Of a DNA stretch of 33,947 nucleotides, positions 3,350-14,574 are shown piece after piece; within the stretch, counting starts at the first letter, position 1, and every line of letters starts with the position of its first letter. Below the pieces are notes generated by a model. That model was not told where the DNA came from. It saw only the letters and a program-made list of their open reading frames with translations, and did no database searches. The stretch is from an uncultured Chthonomonas sp. (lineage in GTDB: Bacteria > Armatimonadota > Chthonomonadetes > Chthonomonadales > CAJBBX01): assembly GCA_903885605.1 (NCBI GenBank), contig CAISJD010000034.1, forward strand, positions 1 through 33,947, read 5' to 3'. The position numbers and the translations under genes are program-made.

Positions 3350-3922
3350 TCAGCCGAGAAGCCTGACGATAGCTATTTCAGTGCCGTCTTGCACTGTCAG
3401 TGTCCGGAGTTCATCTCCAGTGTACGCGGTTGGGGAAACAGAGGTCGGGCGCTTGGACAGCGACCGGGCCTTCTTGAGCACCACGCATCGTGTGATGAAC
3501 TCAGGCGGCTGTTTGTCGCGGGCCCGCTGGATGATCTCGTCCAGGTAGGCTAAGAAGCACTCCGCCCCGAGTATCTGGCGTGATGCGCCCTTTGAGTTGC
3601 CGGATTTCAGTTCGATGTAGATGCGGTAGACGTGGTTCCGGTAACGGCAATGGATCACTGCATCACAGCCCTGATTCCACACGTGACGGGCCTCTTGCCG
3701 GAACAGGTGGGAGTACCGCCCGTGCCCTGCCAGTCCTCTGTCCGGCAGGACGGCAAAGGAGTCCTTACCCAGATGGGTAACTGCAATACTGCGAAGCGTG
3801 GCGTTGGCGCCGTGCTCCTTCAGCGTGATGGACTGGCGATCATCGGCTGATCGAACCAGGACGTTGGCAGTCAGCATCTCGGCCACCATGGCCGCGTACT
3901 CGACGAGGTCAGTCTGCTGCAT
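3350..3922 (-). CDS. PD-(D/E)XK nuclease-like effector paired with an AAA ATPase
   Basis: This 190-residue soluble protein is not assignable to a named family by eye. A PD-(D/E)XK-like core can be read: E77 in a helix (RQEARHVWN), D87 in GCDAVIHC, then a strand ending in YIELKSG with E104 and K106, followed by Q116 in a helix (SRQILGAECFLAYL), the position of the conserved Gln in RecB-like members. This suggests a small metal-dependent DNase. The gene overlaps the 3' end of the upstream ATPase by 14 bases, so the two are co-translated. The layout resembles two-gene ATPase-plus-nuclease antiphage systems such as Septu, but the nuclease here is not HNH. The alternative is a non-catalytic accessory protein with the same fold. 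Confidence 0.6.
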   Translation of the reverse strand: MQQTDLVEYAAMVAEMLTANVLVRSADDRQSITLKEHGANATLRSIAVTHLGKDSFAVLPDRGLAGHGRYSHLFRQEARHVWNQGCDAVIHCRYRNHVYRIYIELKSGNSKGASRQILGAECFLAYLDEIIQRARDKQPPEFITRCVVLKKARSLSKRPTSVSPTAYTGDELRTLTVQDGTEIAIVRLLG

Positions 3923-5318
3923 CGTCGAGGTGGTCCAGTATCTGGTCCTGTCTTGCGTTCATCTCGTTGATTGTTTCATCAAAGCTGAGGAACTCAAAGC
4001 TGGCATCGGGTAAGGGCTGGACTGCCGACAGCACCAGATGCCGACTTCGGCGCTTGGCTTCGGCGTTCCTCTTTACGGACTGCTCACCGGCGACGTACAC
4101 GCGCGCTCTGCCCGCATCGAGCCTCTCATCGGACTTGTAGCCCAGGCGCTCGGCCACCTCGACCTCGGTGCTGCCGAGGAGCAGCATGGTGTTGAGTTCC
4201 TTGGCTATATAGTCGCTGTGTGTGGTGACCAGCACCTTCAGTCCGGCGTTCACCAAGCGGGCCAGCAGACGGGCCATCAGCACCTGGCTAGCCGGATGGA
4301 GGTTCAGCTCCGGCTCATCGATCATCAGGAGGTCGCCGGTTCTCGCTTGGTGGCGCAGGTAGAGCCCGAGGCCGAGAAGGCTCCGCACAGAGCTGGAACT
4401 CTCGTTCAGCGCAAGCTTGGGGCTTCTGCCCGCCGGCTGGAAGTACACCGATCCCCTTGACACGTGGTAGCGGCCGCCAAGCAACTCCTCAAAACCTGTG
4501 AGGAGTTCCAGCATGGCCGTGATCAGCTCTCCCTGAGAGCCCTGCACGGCATCAACCTGATTCATCCGGTCCACTTCGTCGCGGACCGGCAACGGGTACC
4601 TCGGGCTGAACTCAGGAATCAGGATGGAGAGGAGTTGCTTGGGTTCTAGCCGCTTCGAGGTTTCCACGCTGGAGAGGGCCTCGATCAGCCGCGTCCTCGT
4701 GAAGTTCAGCTCGTTCCGGAACGTAGCCGCACCCGTGCGCTCGGTGCTGATCATGACGACCCTAGGCACGACGCCGCTGAATGCAAGCGACTGCACGGCC
4801 GGCAGCAGCATATCGCGCAGGACAGGCTGTGGAATGGCCTTTGGGTCGCCGTCCACAAGGCTGGCCACCAGACTCATCGAACTATGGGCCTTGGTGACAC
4901 TGACCATGGGCGTCGCGTCGGGACGCTGATAGGTGTGGGCAAACTCCCTGCTGACCAAGCCGCCCGGTGGCGGTGCGGCGATGGTTAACTCGGTGGCGTC
5001 AAATCTGCCTTCCTCCGCGGCCAGCACGCCGGCAAGCGCCTTTCGGTACTCCGTAGCGATTCGCGCAAGGTTGTCCTGCCAGGGCGCCAGAATCCGCTCG
5101 CCCAGGTCAATCTCAACACTTCCGGTGTCGGCCAAGCGTGCCGTATCCGCGTCGTCGATCAGCCACGTGGATAGGGCCGGCCACAGTTTTAGAAGACCAT
5201 AGATTGAATAGGCGACGTATGTCTTTCCGGTGTTATTACGTCCACATATAAGTGTAAGATCGCCAATAGCGATGCATGCATCGGTCAACGCGCCCAGATG
5301 GCGGAACTTCAATTCCAT
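3909..5318 (-). CDS. AAA family ATPase (OLD/SMC-like), sensor of a putative defence cassette
   Basis: The 469-residue protein is an ABC/SMC-class ATPase of the kind found in OLD, Septu and related defence systems. It starts MELKFRHLG. Walker A is GRNNTGKT at residues 26-33. A serine-rich signature loop (NESSSSVRSL, about 305-314) precedes Walker B, LLMIDEPELNLHP (330-342), and the H-loop TTHSD (365-369). The central 200 residues between Walker A and the signature are the usual insertion that forms a coiled arm. The 100-residue tail has no TOPRIM motif, so nuclease activity must come from the adjacent PD-(D/E)XK-like protein. A TGGAG box lies 9 bases before the ATG. The gene lies inside the repeat-bounded insertion, immediately upstream of and overlapping its partner. 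Confidence 0.8.
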   Translation of the reverse strand: MELKFRHLGALTDACIAIGDLTLICGRNNTGKTYVAYSIYGLLKLWPALSTWLIDDADTARLADTGSVEIDLGERILAPWQDNLARIATEYRKALAGVLAAEEGRFDATELTIAAPPPGGLVSREFAHTYQRPDATPMVSVTKAHSSMSLVASLVDGDPKAIPQPVLRDMLLPAVQSLAFSGVVPRVVMISTERTGAATFRNELNFTRTRLIEALSSVETSKRLEPKQLLSILIPEFSPRYPLPVRDEVDRMNQVDAVQGSQGELITAMLELLTGFEELLGGRYHVSRGSVYFQPAGRSPKLALNESSSSVRSLLGLGLYLRHQARTGDLLMIDEPELNLHPASQVLMARLLARLVNAGLKVLVTTHSDYIAKELNTMLLLGSTEVEVAERLGYKSDERLDAGRARVYVAGEQSVKRNAEAKRRSRHLVLSAVQPLPDASFEFLSFDETINEMNARQDQILDHLDDAAD

Positions 5319-9062: not shown

Positions 9063-9102
9063 CAGCCTGCGGCGCCCGTGGCCCGGTACGGTTGCCGGGA
9101 CC

Positions 9103-9132
9103 TTGACGCGGGCAGCGGCGGCTGGCTAGACT
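9103..9132 (+). promoter_or_regulatory. Promoter of the GH130-like gene
   Basis: TTGACG at 9103-9108 and TAGACT at 9127-9132 have an 18-base spacer. The predicted start of transcription is about 30 bases before the ATG at 9168, which leaves room for the AAGGA box at 9153-9157. Confidence 0.55.
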
Positions 9133-9167
9133 GGAGGCGATATCTGCCGCCCAAGGAAGCCCCCGCC

Positions 9168-10286
9168 ATGACCTCGGACCCCACGCCCGCCGCCGCCAAG
9201 CCCGCCTTCTCCTGGGAGCGCGACATCGCTCCGGAGGAGGGGCCGCCCATCACGTTCACCGAGGAGGTGCGCTGGGACCGCTGGGACCGCGACTTCGACG
9301 AGGCCGCCTACACGCCGCCGCCGTGGGCCATCGGGCCCTTCGCCAAGTACGCCGGCAATCCGGTCCTGGCCCCCACCGCGGGCGGCTGGGACTGCGGGCG
9401 CTTCGGCGGGGGCGTCCACAACGGCTCCATCCTGCAGGTCGACGGACGTTTCGCCTACGTCTACCGCGGTGAGCGCGAGATGGAGCCCGGAGCCGTGCCC
9501 GGCATGGCCGGCGGCTACATGTGCGACATCGGCCTGGCCCTCAGCGACGACGGCGTGGCCTTCACCAGGGACGAGGAGGCCAGCCCCTTCTTCCGCCTGG
9601 GCCGCGACTCCAAGTACAGCTTCGAGGACGTGAGCTGCGTCCGCTACGGCGGGCTCTACTACCTCTTCTGCAACCGTTGGTTCTGGCCCGATATGGATAA
9701 CCCCGCCACCAGCGGCGCCTTCCTGGCCACGTCGCCGGACCTGCGGACCTGGACCAAGCACGGCCTCTGCTTCCCCGACGCCAAGCGCATCCACCGCAAC
9801 CCGGTCATCGTCCAGACACCCGAGAACGAAGCGGCGAGGCTGGGTTGCGGCTTCGTGATGTACCTGAACGACGGGCTCATCGCCACCAGCGACGACCTGA
9901 TCCACTGGCACTCCCGCGAGGTGGCCGACCCCTGGCCCGGCGGCGAGAACTGCTTCGCCGTGGTCGACTGGGATGAGCGTTACCCCGACAACATCCTCGT
10001 CTTCACCGGCGGTCCCCATTCGGGCCACTTCTACGCCGTGGGCGAGGTGCTGGTAGACCGGAACGAGCCTGACCGCGCAGTGGAGTGGCTACCGAGGCCC
10101 GTGCTGACCGCCGACCCCGCGATCCCGTGGGAGAACGGCCTCACCGCCGAGGAACCCCACAAGCCCATCTCGCGCATGCTCGACTGCATCTTCTTCAACG
10201 GCCTGACGCGCCGCGACGGCAAGTGGTGGGCCTACTACGGCGGTAGCGAGGTCTATACTTGCCTGGCCACCGCGCCGGCGAGGTAA
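9168..10286 (+). CDS. GH130/GH43-like five-bladed beta-propeller protein
   Basis: The start is the ATG at 9168 (MTSDPTPAAAKPAFSWERD), with AAGGA 10 bases upstream and a plausible promoter before that. The 372-residue product lacks a signal peptide. Propeller motifs include FAKYAGNPVLAPTAGGWD near the N-terminus (the opening blade typical of GH130 phosphorylases and GH43-like enzymes), GRFAYVYRGE, DIGLALSDDGVAFTR, FEDVSCVRYGGLYYLFCNR, FLATSPDLRTWTKHG, and a final RRDGKWWAYYGGSEVYTCLA blade. GH130 enzymes phosphorolyse or hydrolyse beta-mannosidic bonds. The overall resemblance supports that clan, but the specificity is unconfirmed. The cytoplasmic location would fit intracellular processing of imported oligosaccharides. 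Confidence 0.7.
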   Translation: MTSDPTPAAAKPAFSWERDIAPEEGPPITFTEEVRWDRWDRDFDEAAYTPPPWAIGPFAKYAGNPVLAPTAGGWDCGRFGGGVHNGSILQVDGRFAYVYRGEREMEPGAVPGMAGGYMCDIGLALSDDGVAFTRDEEASPFFRLGRDSKYSFEDVSCVRYGGLYYLFCNRWFWPDMDNPATSGAFLATSPDLRTWTKHGLCFPDAKRIHRNPVIVQTPENEAARLGCGFVMYLNDGLIATSDDLIHWHSREVADPWPGGENCFAVVDWDERYPDNILVFTGGPHSGHFYAVGEVLVDRNEPDRAVEWLPRPVLTADPAIPWENGLTAEEPHKPISRMLDCIFFNGLTRRDGKWWAYYGGSEVYTCLATAPAR

Positions 10287-10344: not shown

Positions 10345-10412
10345 TGTGAGACGCCGCGCGCGCGGGTAGACTGGCCGCATCGTGTCAGCCTGTTACTGCC
10401 GTGGAGGTTCCG

Positions 10413-11453
10413 ATGCCCCATGACCAGTTGTGGAAGCAGTTGCTGGAGACCTTCTTCCGGGAGTTCATGGAGCTCTTCCTCCCGGATGTAGCCGAGCACA
10501 TCGATTTCGACAGCGTCGAGCCGCTCGGAGCCGAGCTCTTCACCGACCTGCCGAAGGGCAGGTTGCGGCGGCCCGACTTCCTGGTGCAGGTCCGCACCCG
10601 CGAAGGCGCCACTGAGATCGTGCTGATCCACGTCGAGGTTCAGGCGCGGCGCCGCAAGGACGTGCCCGCGCGCATGTTCGACTACTACTGCCTGCTGCGG
10701 TTGCGTCGCGAAGTGCCGGTGCTGCCGGTGGTAGTCTATCTGCAACCGGGCGCCGGCGGCATCACGCGGGAGCGCTTCGCGGCGGGCCTCTGGGGCCGCG
10801 AGACATTGCGGTTCGAGTACGACGCGCTCGGATTGCCGGACCTGTCGGCCGAGGAGTACCTGGCGAACCCGTCAGCCCTTGCGCCCGCCCTGAGCGCCCT
10901 CATGCGGGCGCCCGGCATGGACCGCGTGGCTCGCGCCTTCCGCGCCCTGGAGCGCGTAGCCAGGACCGACGTGGACGAGGCCCGGCGCTTCCTGTTGGCC
11001 TACGTGGTAGACCACTACATGAAGCTAACCGACGATGAGGCGGAGGAACTCAAGGCCCTCAGCCAGTCGTCTACAGCAACAGAGGTGAAGCAGATGTTCC
11101 TTTCATTCCAGTCCCGCGCCCACGAGCAGGGCTTGAGCCAGGGCATGCAGCAAGGCTTGAGCCAGGGTATGCAGCAGGGTCTGAGCCAGGGCCTGCAGCA
11201 AGGTCTGAGCCAGGGCCTGCAGCAGGGCTTGAGCCAGGGCATGCAGCAGGGCCTGAGCCAGGGCCTGAGCGCCGGCCGGGCGCATGGAGAGCAGGCCGTG
11301 CTGCTGAGGCTGATGCGGCGCCGCTTCGGTGCGCTGGCCCCGGAGGTCGTTGCCCGCGTCGAGGCCATCCAGGATACCAACCAGCTCGAGGCCCTGGCCG
11401 ATCGCATCCTGGACGCCCGCACCCTCGACGAACTGGGCCTGCCGACGGCTTAG
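10413..11453 (+). CDS. rpn: Rpn-family PD-(D/E)XK nuclease with variable-repeat C-terminus
   Basis: The start is taken as the ATG at 10413, with GTGGAGG at 10401-10407 placed 5 bases upstream; a GTG at 10401 lies inside that box. The 346-residue protein belongs to the recombination-promoting nuclease / PDDEXK transposase-like family. The core D55 (RRPDFLVQV), H73-V-E75-V-Q77 (LIHVEVQ) and a following Tyr-rich helix (MFDYYCLL) are the family's catalytic pattern, in which Gln replaces the usual Lys. Residues 239-286 are a four-residue repeat array (QGLS/QGMQ). A helical tail (LLRLMRRRFGALAPEVVARV and onward) completes it. Known Rpn proteins are toxic DNases involved in phage defence, with an antitoxin made from an internal start; one such start is present here at 11094. 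Confidence 0.85.
   Translation: MPHDQLWKQLLETFFREFMELFLPDVAEHIDFDSVEPLGAELFTDLPKGRLRRPDFLVQVRTREGATEIVLIHVEVQARRRKDVPARMFDYYCLLRLRREVPVLPVVVYLQPGAGGITRERFAAGLWGRETLRFEYDALGLPDLSAEEYLANPSALAPALSALMRAPGMDRVARAFRALERVARTDVDEARRFLLAYVVDHYMKLTDDEAEELKALSQSSTATEVKQMFLSFQSRAHEQGLSQGMQQGLSQGMQQGLSQGLQQGLSQGLQQGLSQGMQQGLSQGLSAGRAHGEQAVLLRLMRRRFGALAPEVVARVEAIQDTNQLEALADRILDARTLDELGLPTA
11081..11096 (+). promoter_or_regulatory. Internal ribosome binding site and start codon within rpn
   Basis: AGAGGTG at 11081-11087 lies 6 bases before an in-frame ATG (11094-11096, Met228 of the full protein). Sequence and spacing match a functional Shine-Dalgarno. The site sits just upstream of the repeat array, where an internal antitoxin start would be expected. 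Confidence 0.55.
11094..11453 (+). CDS. Putative intragenic antitoxin (RpnS-like) from internal start
   Basis: Translation from the internal ATG would give a 119-residue protein identical to the C-terminus of the Rpn nuclease. It would contain the four-residue repeats and the terminal helical segment but none of the catalytic residues. In characterised Rpn loci, small C-terminal products made from internal starts bind and block the full-length nuclease, and their dimer helix contains four-residue repeats of variable number. The arrangement here reproduces that pattern in a distant phylum. The start context is seen in the sequence; expression and antitoxin function are inference. Confidence 0.45.
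   Translation: MFLSFQSRAHEQGLSQGMQQGLSQGMQQGLSQGLQQGLSQGLQQGLSQGMQQGLSQGLSAGRAHGEQAVLLRLMRRRFGALAPEVVARVEAIQDTNQLEALADRILDARTLDELGLPTA
11127..11270 (+). repeat. Six 24-bp tandem repeats in rpn
   Basis: Six consecutive 24-base units encode QGLSQG(M/L)(Q/S), that is twelve four-residue steps. The units differ mainly at silent positions (CAG/CAA, GGC/GGT, TTG/CTG) and at ATG/CTG. Both the nuclease and the internal product contain them. Such arrays are prone to gain or loss of units by slippage. Confidence 0.95.
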
Positions 11454-11457
11454 ACCG

Positions 11458-11480
11458 CGGGCGCCCGCGAACGGCGCCCG
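11458..11480. terminator. Bidirectional hairpin between rpn and the fucosidase
   Basis: CGGGCGCC at 11458-11465 pairs with GGCGCCCG at 11473-11480 around a 7-base loop. It lies 4 bases past the rpn stop and 24 bases past the convergent fucosidase stop. There is no T-run. Confidence 0.5.
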
Positions 11481-11504
11481 TCGGTGCGTGGCAGGCCAAA
11501 CCGG

Positions 11505-12974
11505 CTACGGAGCCTGCGGCTCCAGGAAGAGCCCCATCTCTGAGAGGCAAGGGCAGACGGGCGACTTGGTGACCCGTAGCCGCACCTTCGTGGTGGTGAC
11601 GGGCTTGGCGCGCACCAGCCGGCAGGAGCCGATGGCCGTGCCCTTGGCCAGTTCGACCCAGTCAGAGCCGTCCCAGGTATCGACGGCCCAGTCATCCACC
11701 CGCTGGCCCAGCGGCAGGTACTCGCGCAGGCGCACCACGTTGAAGGTGACCGGCGCCCTGAACTCCAGCACGACGCTGGGCGTCGTTTGATCGTCTTCGG
11801 TTGCCCAGTAGGTGCCGGCCTTGCCGTCCACCAGCTTGTCGGGCCCGAACGCCGAGCCCCGGCTCGGGCCGGTCGCCTTCGCCCGACGCGCCAGGTCCTC
11901 GGCGAAGATGGCCTTCAACCGCTTACCCAGGTCCTCCAGCGAGGCCCGGTCCGTTTCGTGGACGCGGCCGCGCCGGTCCGGCGGCACGTTGAGCAGCATG
12001 ACCGAACCGTGGCCCGCGGAGCCGAAGTAGTGCGACACCAGCTCGGGGCCCGTCTTCACCTTGCCGTCCTCCGAGGCGTGGTAGAACCAGCCGGGGCGGA
12101 TGGAGAAGTCGGTCTCGGCGGGCATCCACCGCTCGCCGTTGCGGGTGCCGTGCCAGAGGTCCTTGATGCCGACGCCCGGCGAGGGCTTGCGGCCCGCCTC
12201 CTCGGCCACGGGGGTGATGGTGGACCAGCAGGGGTCGCCCGTCCAGCCCGACTCGGTGCCCACCCAGCGGATGTCGGGGCCCACATCGCTGAAGATCACG
12301 ATGTTCGGGTCCAACTGGCGGATCAGCGCCCAGGTCGTGGGCCAGTCGTAGTAGCTGGTCGGATCAATCTTCCGCGCCTCGCGGGCGCCGCCGTAGAAGC
12401 CGTCGCCTCCGTTGGCCCCGTCGTGCCACACTTCGCTCACCGGACCATAGGTGGTGATCAGCTCGCGGAGCTGGTTGCGGTAGTACTCGACGTAGCTTGG
12501 GGAGCCGTAGTCGGCCCGGTTGCGGTCCCAGGGCGAGAGGTAGATGCCGAACTTCAGCTTATGGCGCCGGCAGGCGTCACTGATCTCGCGAACGACGTCG
12601 CCCTTGCCGCCCTTCCATGGGCTCTGCTCCACGGAGTGGTCGGTGAACTTGCTGGGCCAGAGGCAGAAGCCGTCATGGTGCTTGCAGACGAGCACGATCT
12701 GCTTCATGCCCGCCACCGCGAACGAACTGACGATCTGCTCGGCGTCGAAGTCGGTGGGGTTGAAGACGCTCGGGCTCTCGTCGCCGAAGCCCCACTCCTT
12801 GTCGGTGAAGGTGTTGGTGGTGAAGTGGATGAAGCCGATGAACTCCATCTGCTGCCAGCGCACCTGCGCGGGGCTGGGCAGGGCGCCATAGGGCGCGGGC
12901 GCGGACGACGGGCCTTCGGCGGCGAGGGTCAGCATAGGTAGCATGGCGGCGATCACTCCCAGTGCGTAGATCAC
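11505..12974 (-). CDS. Exported alpha-L-fucosidase (GH29) with C-terminal discoidin-type domain
   Basis: The start is a GTG at 12974, with AGGAG 7 bases upstream; the protein is 489 residues. Residues 1-19 are a signal peptide (MIYALGVIAAMLPMLTLAA). The GH29 barrel follows, with KHHDGFCLWPS (98-108) and YGPVSEVWHDGANGG (176-190), in which D185 is the expected catalytic nucleophile of this retaining family. From about residue 355 a galactose-binding/F5-8-type-C domain is visible (KLVDGKAGTYWATEDDQTTP, VVRLREYLPLGQRVDDW, VRLRVTKSP). It removes terminal alpha-L-fucose, probably in the periplasm or at the cell surface. It is the second gene of an operon whose first gene, 64 bases upstream, is a sulfatase, which suggests sulfated fucan or fucosylated glycan breakdown. 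Confidence 0.9.
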   Translation of the reverse strand: MIYALGVIAAMLPMLTLAAEGPSSAPAPYGALPSPAQVRWQQMEFIGFIHFTTNTFTDKEWGFGDESPSVFNPTDFDAEQIVSSFAVAGMKQIVLVCKHHDGFCLWPSKFTDHSVEQSPWKGGKGDVVREISDACRRHKLKFGIYLSPWDRNRADYGSPSYVEYYRNQLRELITTYGPVSEVWHDGANGGDGFYGGAREARKIDPTSYYDWPTTWALIRQLDPNIVIFSDVGPDIRWVGTESGWTGDPCWSTITPVAEEAGRKPSPGVGIKDLWHGTRNGERWMPAETDFSIRPGWFYHASEDGKVKTGPELVSHYFGSAGHGSVMLLNVPPDRRGRVHETDRASLEDLGKRLKAIFAEDLARRAKATGPSRGSAFGPDKLVDGKAGTYWATEDDQTTPSVVLEFRAPVTFNVVRLREYLPLGQRVDDWAVDTWDGSDWVELAKGTAIGSCRLVRAKPVTTTKVRLRVTKSPVCPCLSEMGLFLEPQAP

Positions 12975-13038
12975 GATCGGTCTCCTGCGGGCGGCTCGCC
13001 GATCACCGGCGACCGGTCCATACGGTACTCCATCCCGG

Positions 13039-14574
13039 CTAGGCCCGTCCGCCCGGCAGGGGCACGGGCCGGCCGTCGGAGCGCCGGACGGACATCTGCG
13101 CCCCGGTCCGCTCCAGTTCGTGGCGCAGCAGCTCGGCCATGCGGCGCGTCCGGCGCGGGTCCGCCGCCGATAGGTCGCGGCTCTCGCCGATGTCCTCGGC
13201 CAGGTTGAAGAGCTCGCAGCGCGGCTCGGCGTGGAAGTACACGAGCTTCCAGTCGCCCGAGCGCACCGCGCTGTAGGGGTGGATGCCCGGTCCCGCCACG
13301 CCCCAGACATGCGGATAGTGCCAGAGCAACGGCCTCGAGGCGGGCAGGGAGCCCGTGCCGCGCAGTAGCGGCGCCATGTCCCTGCCGTCGCCTGCACGCA
13401 CGGCGTCGGAAGACCCGCGCGCGCCGGCCGCCCGCAGGAACGTGGCGAACAGGTCCTGGGTGATGACGGGCGTGTGGCACCGCTTCCCCGCCGCCACTTT
13501 GCCGGGCCAGCGCGCCAGCATGGGCACGCGAACACCGCCCTCGTAGGCCGATCCCTTGCCGCTGTTGAGTGGGGTGTTGTGTGTGTGGGGCCTGCCGCCG
13601 CGCCCGTGCGCCGAGAGGCCGCCGTTGTCCGACGCGAAGACCACCAGCGTGTTGTCGGCGATGCCCCGCCGGTCCAGCAGGTCGAGCAGGTCGCAGAGGC
13701 TCTTGTCCATGCCCTCCAGCAGCGAAGCGTACATGGCCTCGGTGCGGTTGACGCCCGCACGGGTGTAGCGGCCCATGAACCGCTCGTCCGGCGCAAAGGG
13801 GACATGCACCGCGTAGTGGGCCATGTTCAGGAAGAAGGGCTTGCCGTCGGCGATGGCCCCGTCCACGGCGGCGATGGCCTCCTGGGTGAGCGCCTCGGTG
13901 AGGAACGTGCCGGCGCCGATGTGCTTCTCCAGGCCCGGCACGTCCCAGGCCCTGTCCTTGCCGGCGAGGGCCCTGCCGTAGGCCTCTTGTGCCAGGTAGC
14001 TTCCGGGCGCGCCGGCGGCGTGGCCGGCGATGTTCACGTCGAACCCCAGGTTCCTGGGCTCGGCGCCGGGGGTGCCGATGGCTCCGAAGTGGGCCTTGCC
14101 GACATGGATGGTCCGGTACCCCGCGCCACGCAGGAGGGCCGGCAGGGCGGCAGCCGCACACGCACCAGGGGTCTCGGCGCTGTTGCTGAGCCCGCCCAGG
14201 TTCCAGGCGGGCGGGAGCAGGCCGGGATGCTTGCCGGAGGTGTCGGCGTCGGGCCGCAAGGTCCAGTTGGTGACGTGGGTGCGCGCCGGGCACCAGCCCG
14301 TCATCATGCTCACGCGGGTGGGTGTGCAGACGGGGCCTGCGGCGTAGGCGTTGGTGAACGCCATGCCTCCGGATGCCAGCCGCTCCATGCCCGGTGTGCG
14401 GTAGAGGCCGTTGAAAGGGGTCTCGCGCTCCCAGAGCGGCACCGAGGTGTCTTGCCAGCCCATGTCATCCACCATGAAGAGGATGATGTTGGGCCGCCGC
14501 GGCGGCGCGGCGGCGGCGGATGCCGCTCCGCCCAGGGCGGCGGCGCCCGCCAGGATGAGTTCCCTTCGGTTCAT
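13039..14574 (-). CDS. Exported type I sulfatase
   Basis: The start is the ATG at 14574 (MNRRELILAG), because the TGGAGG box abuts an earlier ATG at 14580 with no spacing but is 6 bases from this one. The 511-residue protein has a twin-arginine-like signal (NRREL plus an Ala-rich stretch), then RPNIILFMVDDMGW with the metal-binding DD pair. C83-T-P-T-R is the C-x-P-x-R signature in which Cys is converted to formylglycine. FASDNGG, KGSAYEGGVRVP and WKLVYF complete the family set. The enzyme hydrolyses sulfate esters on sugars; activity requires a formylglycine-generating or anaerobic maturase encoded elsewhere. It leads the fucosidase operon, and the likely joint task is desulfation before fucose release. 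Confidence 0.9.
   Translation of the reverse strand: MNRRELILAGAAALGGAASAAAAPPRRPNIILFMVDDMGWQDTSVPLWERETPFNGLYRTPGMERLASGGMAFTNAYAAGPVCTPTRVSMMTGWCPARTHVTNWTLRPDADTSGKHPGLLPPAWNLGGLSNSAETPGACAAAALPALLRGAGYRTIHVGKAHFGAIGTPGAEPRNLGFDVNIAGHAAGAPGSYLAQEAYGRALAGKDRAWDVPGLEKHIGAGTFLTEALTQEAIAAVDGAIADGKPFFLNMAHYAVHVPFAPDERFMGRYTRAGVNRTEAMYASLLEGMDKSLCDLLDLLDRRGIADNTLVVFASDNGGLSAHGRGGRPHTHNTPLNSGKGSAYEGGVRVPMLARWPGKVAAGKRCHTPVITQDLFATFLRAAGARGSSDAVRAGDGRDMAPLLRGTGSLPASRPLLWHYPHVWGVAGPGIHPYSAVRSGDWKLVYFHAEPRCELFNLAEDIGESRDLSAADPRRTRRMAELLRHELERTGAQMSVRRSDGRPVPLPGGRA

Follow-up and report, generated by a model that had tools for sequence, protein, structure and literature searches.

The window, that is, the whole 33,947-nucleotide stretch of DNA analyzed here, corresponds to contig C34 in a genome of 5.6 Mb, and the near relatives of this genome are MAGs of the Armatimonadota. 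It carries a predicted rpn gene, the parts of which are listed in Table 1. The Shine-Dalgarno (SD) energy is -13.3 kcal/mol at ATG 10413, as compared with -2.2 at the alternative GTG 10401. Two open reading frames in a mechanical list (11015-11422 and 11071-11550) overlap the gene in antisense. Just upstream, a gene on the plus strand (9078-10286) matches beta-1,2-mannobiose phosphorylase and mannosidase models far below their cut-offs, and an alpha-L-fucosidase gene lies downstream on the minus strand (11505-13805). Further away, two overlapping genes on the minus strand (3350-5318) correspond to parts A (E 4.5e-124) and B (E 1.7e-15) of the anti-phage system PD-T4-4 / PDC-M47. About 5 kb separate this PD-T4-4-like pair from the rpn gene, and its bearing on an anti-phage role is circumstantial only.

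Table 1. Features of the rpn gene, in window positions.
Feature	Position	Strand	Basis
rpnL, predicted Rpn-like nuclease of 346 aa (full length, from ATG)	10413..11453	+	TIGR01784, DUF4351, hhalign to E. coli Rpn
GGAGGT, ribosome binding site for full-length RpnL	10403..10408	+	SD energy
N-terminal PD-(D/E)XK nuclease domain (predicted), about residues 1-142	10413..10838	+	AF2 model and VIA-align
Codon of catalytic D55, aligned with RpnA D63	10575..10577	+	Alignment
Codons of E75-V-Q77, active-site E-x-Q, aligned with RpnA E82/Q84	10635..10643	+	Alignment
Internal Shine-Dalgarno AGAGGTG, encoded by T-E-V-K; core GAGGTGA at 11082-11088	11081..11087	+	Strongest in gene; conserved
Internal start codon ATG, M228 (predicted)	11094..11096	+	SD energy, conservation, equivalent start of stand-alone copies
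rpnS, predicted C-terminal antitoxin, 119 aa, 12.8 kDa	11094..11453	+	ORF translation, AF2
Twelve 12-base (four-residue) repeats, 24-base higher unit	11130..11273	+	Sequence; C137 copy has ten
DUF4351 domain (PF14261), residues 288-341	11274..11435	+	hmmscan E 1e-11

To the Rpn models the window protein matches below cut-off: TIGR01784 aligns with its N-terminal part at E 7e-6 (26 bits, below the curated cut-off of 52.1), and PF04754 is sub-threshold (17.5 bits, cut-off 21). TIGR01784 matches 39 of 42 homologues, with a best E of 6.5e-14. When a profile of the window family was compared by hhalign with an alignment of the four E. coli K-12 Rpn proteins, the match had a probability of 95.9% (E 5.8e-9), and D55, E75 and Q77 of the window protein were paired with D63, E82 and Q84 of RpnA. 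D55 and E75 are invariant across the 42 homologues, and Q77 is common. The AlphaFold2 model (mean pLDDT 89.8) consists of a nuclease domain, a helical linker, the repeat helix and three short helices. By VIA-align, the modeled N-terminal domain resembles 2vld, a repair endonuclease of P. abyssi (Z 8.6), EndoMS (8.3) and McrC (7.5). Judged by profile and model, the N-terminal domain is an Rpn-type PD-(D/E)XK nuclease with its catalytic residues intact, in agreement with the identification made in an earlier, sequence-only reading of this DNA. No Rpn relative came up when the PDB was searched by sequence with the window protein and with each of the two profiles; matches to FliH and rhoptry proteins in these searches were rejected, because they arise from the Gln/Gly-rich repeat helix. 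The C-terminal domain aligned weakly with E. coli RpnS (fold 7TH0; 64% over 33 columns by hhalign), and Foldseek with the C-terminal model or the short product gave no significant PDB fold match.

The sequence-only reading had also proposed that AGAGGTG, 6 bases and an in-frame ATG at 11094 would start a 119-residue protein, and this reading of the DNA was confirmed. ATG 11094 is codon 228, in frame, with a 6-nt spacer after AGAGGTG, and the GAGGUGA core can pair over 7 nt with the canonical 16S tail. SD scores were calculated as nearest-neighbour energies against the canonical anti-SD within a fixed spacing range; the canonical sequence was assumed because the genome's own 16S tail, searched for as a pattern in the assembly, was not found. 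Among the 32 in-frame ATG, GTG and TTG codons of the gene, ATG 11094 scored -14.5 kcal/mol, which is stronger than the true start, and the next-best internal codon reached -7.8. Across the whole window, 0.9% of ATGs score -14.5 kcal/mol or stronger. A consensus search found no internal sigma-70 promoter in the gene, and this candidate was dropped; in E. coli, transcription does start inside rpn genes, but the promoters of this genome may be of another type.

Downstream of the internal start, the repeats number twelve four-residue steps, as the sequence-only reading had counted, but they do not form a pure Q-G-L-S repeat: GLSQ mainly alternates with GMQQ or GLQQ, so that the higher repeat unit is 24 bases. 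M228 precedes the first repeat (G240) by 12 residues; the published RpnS start lies 8-20 residues before the repeats (PMC10327210). In the AlphaFold2 model, a single long helix (residues 223-305) contains all the repeats, and M228 marks its N-terminal end. As a positive control, the SD score ranked the published M244 top among the internal starts of E. coli rpnA (PMC10327210), and the equivalent internal site ranked top in rpnB, rpnC and rpnE. The score also picks the start of ypaA, the stand-alone rpnES, which begins with the same SD.

Conservation of the internal start was analyzed in homologues from 39 of 291 Armatimonadota genomes. For a peptide-based test, genes with E-V-x-x-start before the repeats were picked by peptide and start codon, not by SD strength. 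At this start, 18 of 20 nucleotide clusters had an SD energy of -14 or below, compared with 2 of the 341 remaining in-frame starts of these genes. The E-V-x-x-M motif and the Glu-rich segment favour SD-like DNA, so that part of this effect is peptide-driven. The SD-like string might even be nothing but a by-product of a conserved x-E-V-K/R-x-M peptide and GAG/GTG-rich codons, in a gene that makes the full-length protein only. Indeed, Glu-Val in common codons often yields GAGGTG, and synonymous resampling with each gene's own codon usage already gave a mean of -12.8 for the 20 clusters; the observed value, however, was -16.6 (z -4.1, p 5e-4). In single-gene synonymous shuffles, individual genes are rarely significant; the per-gene shuffle is underpowered, since most of the SD is already fixed by E-V, and pooling is needed. 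An earlier pooled version, in which some motifs had been mis-picked, gave a weaker result (Wilcoxon p 0.002; Fisher's combination not significant). The pooled excess over the synonymous null is limited to the stretch before the repeats (z -4.4) and absent from control stretches, which argues against a by-product of peptide and codon usage.

The same alternative is weakened by the SD peptide itself, which differs by subfamily (E-V-K/R-x-M, Q-E-A/D-x-x-M or E-E-E-x-E-M), while its location is the same or near. In a peptide-free test, the strongest internal SD-start lay no more than 30 codons before the repeats in 31 of 36 clusters outside the f16 lineage, against a chance expectation of 5.6 (binomial p about 1e-20), a count whose clusters are not fully independent events, since the homologues are related. 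The internal start in homologues mostly lies 8-25 residues before the repeats. In the clade of L061, L063, L065 and L066 (G031, G032), Trp replaces the internal start Met, and a strong SD-ATG of the E-E-E-x-E-M type lies upstream of this position, at a distance of about 13-15 residues, as though the internal start had moved.

The sequence-only reading had named homologues lacking a ribosome binding site at this position as evidence against internal initiation. Most homologues have the site, but the f16 lineage (G158-G175), with long QGLQQ repeats, lacks it: such a site near the repeats was present in 2 of 17 cases, where 1.8 were expected. The main rpn starts of this lineage have weak SDs too (median -5.4). 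The f16 lineage may initiate otherwise or lack RpnS. Leaderless internal transcription, with a -10 box near an in-frame start, was considered for f16 and rejected, as no consistent signal was found. In two f16 genes only (L054 and L116, of G164 and G171), TATAAT stands a few nucleotides before the main rpn ATG, without an SD, in a leaderless-like arrangement.

Downstream of three homologues lies a stand-alone copy that comprises the C-terminal unit alone, and two of these copies retain the SD. Behind the C28 paralogue, which belongs to the window's own genome, the copy lies directly 3' and starts 33 nt before the internal ATG; it retains GAGGTGAAGCACATG, and 6 positions differ over its 87 residues. 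The copy at G047:C189, about 100 nt downstream, retains AAGGAGCAGCCAGAAATG and has two extra four-residue steps (dN/dS 0.30). The third, at G047:C304, is more diverged; it begins with the equivalent Met and has no clear SD (dN/dS 0.15, with dS saturated). A dN/dS below 0.5 is hard to reach if one of two copies evolves neutrally. In their arrangement, these copies show the predicted unit from the internal start onward behaving like an independent gene, similar to the E. coli pair rpnE-ypaA. Two of them also retain the SD in a setting in which the peptide is not required by a long upstream frame, and we consider it improbable that the SD-like string is only a by-product of the protein sequence.

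Repeat number varies between copies. The C137 copy has 10 four-residue steps as compared with 12 in the window, that is, one 24-base unit fewer; the protein around its internal start and its DUF4351 part are identical to those of the window gene, its downstream flank differs, and the contig ends within the copy. At the end of contig C89, the 5' end of a copy is 99% identical to the window gene. Many contigs of the window's own assembly (G000) end within rpn paralogues, namely C9, C89, C97, C127, C137, C180 and C189 (L004, L006-L009, L014-L016 and L020). DNA homology between the rpn copies L002, L016 and L019 starts and stops near ORF borders, suggesting that rpn copies in G000 arise by gene-sized duplication, with no visible terminal repeats.

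Taken together, the phylum-wide conservation, the excess at synonymous sites and the natural stand-alone duplicates support a functional internal start. The toxin/antitoxin logic that the sequence-only reading had transferred from characterized Rpn proteins held at the level of sequence, given that the SD-ATG is conserved beyond what peptide and codon usage explain and that stand-alone copies start there. We consider it likely that the window gene encodes an RpnL toxin together with an in-gene RpnS antitoxin, as described by Zhong et al. 2023 (PMC10327210), in a new phylum. One frame would give rise to two proteins, RpnL (346 aa) and RpnS (119 aa). RpnL would combine an N-terminal PD-(D/E)XK DNA nuclease with the long repeat helix and the DUF4351 domain, and GAGGTGA with ATG 11094 would initiate RpnS, consisting of the repeat helix plus DUF4351 only. 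RpnS would most likely pair with the matching helix of RpnL and keep the nuclease inactive until release, for example upon phage infection. The repeat count would decide the fit between RpnS and RpnL, and copies one unit apart would constitute separate toxin/antitoxin pairs. We infer translation, inhibition, repeat-register specificity and phage defence from the work of Zhong et al. 2023 (PMC10327210), in which RpnS was demonstrated in E. coli and for one C. difficile gene, and in which one added repeat in E. coli RpnC altered which RpnS inhibits which RpnL.

Alternatively, the internal start might be used to make a structural subunit or oligomer modulator, as Cas11d is made within Cas10d. The predicted product, in which a long helix is joined to a small bundle of helices, would suit such a part, and there is a precedent for small subunits that are made in-gene and play a complementary role (Cas11d, cited in PMC10327210). 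In the closest characterized relatives, the E. coli Rpn proteins, however, the short product blocks the nuclease (PMC10327210), and the autonomous copies downstream, which resemble the rpnE-ypaA arrangement of E. coli, would be consistent with an extra dose of antitoxin; a subunit role is thus unlikely. That the gene is a decaying transposase-like element with repeats formed by neutral slippage is very improbable indeed: many paralogue fragments lie at contig ends and several copies in relatives are broken, but the window copy and its active site are intact, diverged stand-alone copies are under purifying selection (dN/dS 0.30 and 0.15), DNA homology between copies stops near ORF borders, and rpn genes showed no transposition features in the work of Zhong et al. 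(PMC10327210).

The reading as RpnL with an in-gene RpnS extends the Rpn gene-within-gene toxin/antitoxin arrangement to a largely uncultured phylum; it is a known system rather than a new one. The sequence-only reading, which had placed it in a far-removed lineage, overstated the novelty, as Zhong et al. 2023 (PMC10327210) had already recorded rpn genes from 34 bacterial phyla. In the literature library searched, no later paper describing an in-gene Rpn antitoxin in Armatimonadota was found. More tentatively, and with somewhat more doubt than confidence, we propose that in Armatimonadota selection acts at the nucleotide level on the internal start, which different subfamilies have re-encoded with different peptides at the same position, and that repeat expansions then split near-identical copies in the same genome into several mutually insulated toxin/antitoxin pairs. 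If so, a single codon string would serve two functions. A genome with near-identical copies one repeat unit apart offers a natural test of whether antitoxin specificity is decided by repeat register, and the SD-start score is a simple sequence test applicable to any rpn gene.

Like E. coli RpnA-E and RpnP2 (RpnL/RpnS), the window gene encodes an N-terminal PD-(D/E)XK nuclease (residues H-D-x-x-x-K, D and E-x-Q) and a helix that contains four-residue repeats, and it has an SD and ATG just upstream of the repeats; the downstream stand-alone rpnS copies correspond to E. coli ypaA. Unlike the E. coli proteins, the window family has a C-terminal DUF4351 domain and a much longer repeat helix, and it encodes E-V-K-x-M at the SD (GAGGTGA), where the E. 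coli genes encode K-E-x-x-M (AAGGAG); it belongs to the Armatimonadota, where the system is predicted from sequence. Small DUF4351 (PF14261) proteins, as which stand-alone RpnS genes are annotated in some species (Zhong et al., PMC10327210), have the same C-terminal domain, whereas in the window gene this domain is fused to a nuclease and has a predicted separate in-gene start. Cas10d/Cas11d of the Synechocystis type I-D system likewise uses an internal in-frame start to make a small protein from the C-terminal part of the gene; activity depends on Cas11d, however, whereas RpnS inhibits.
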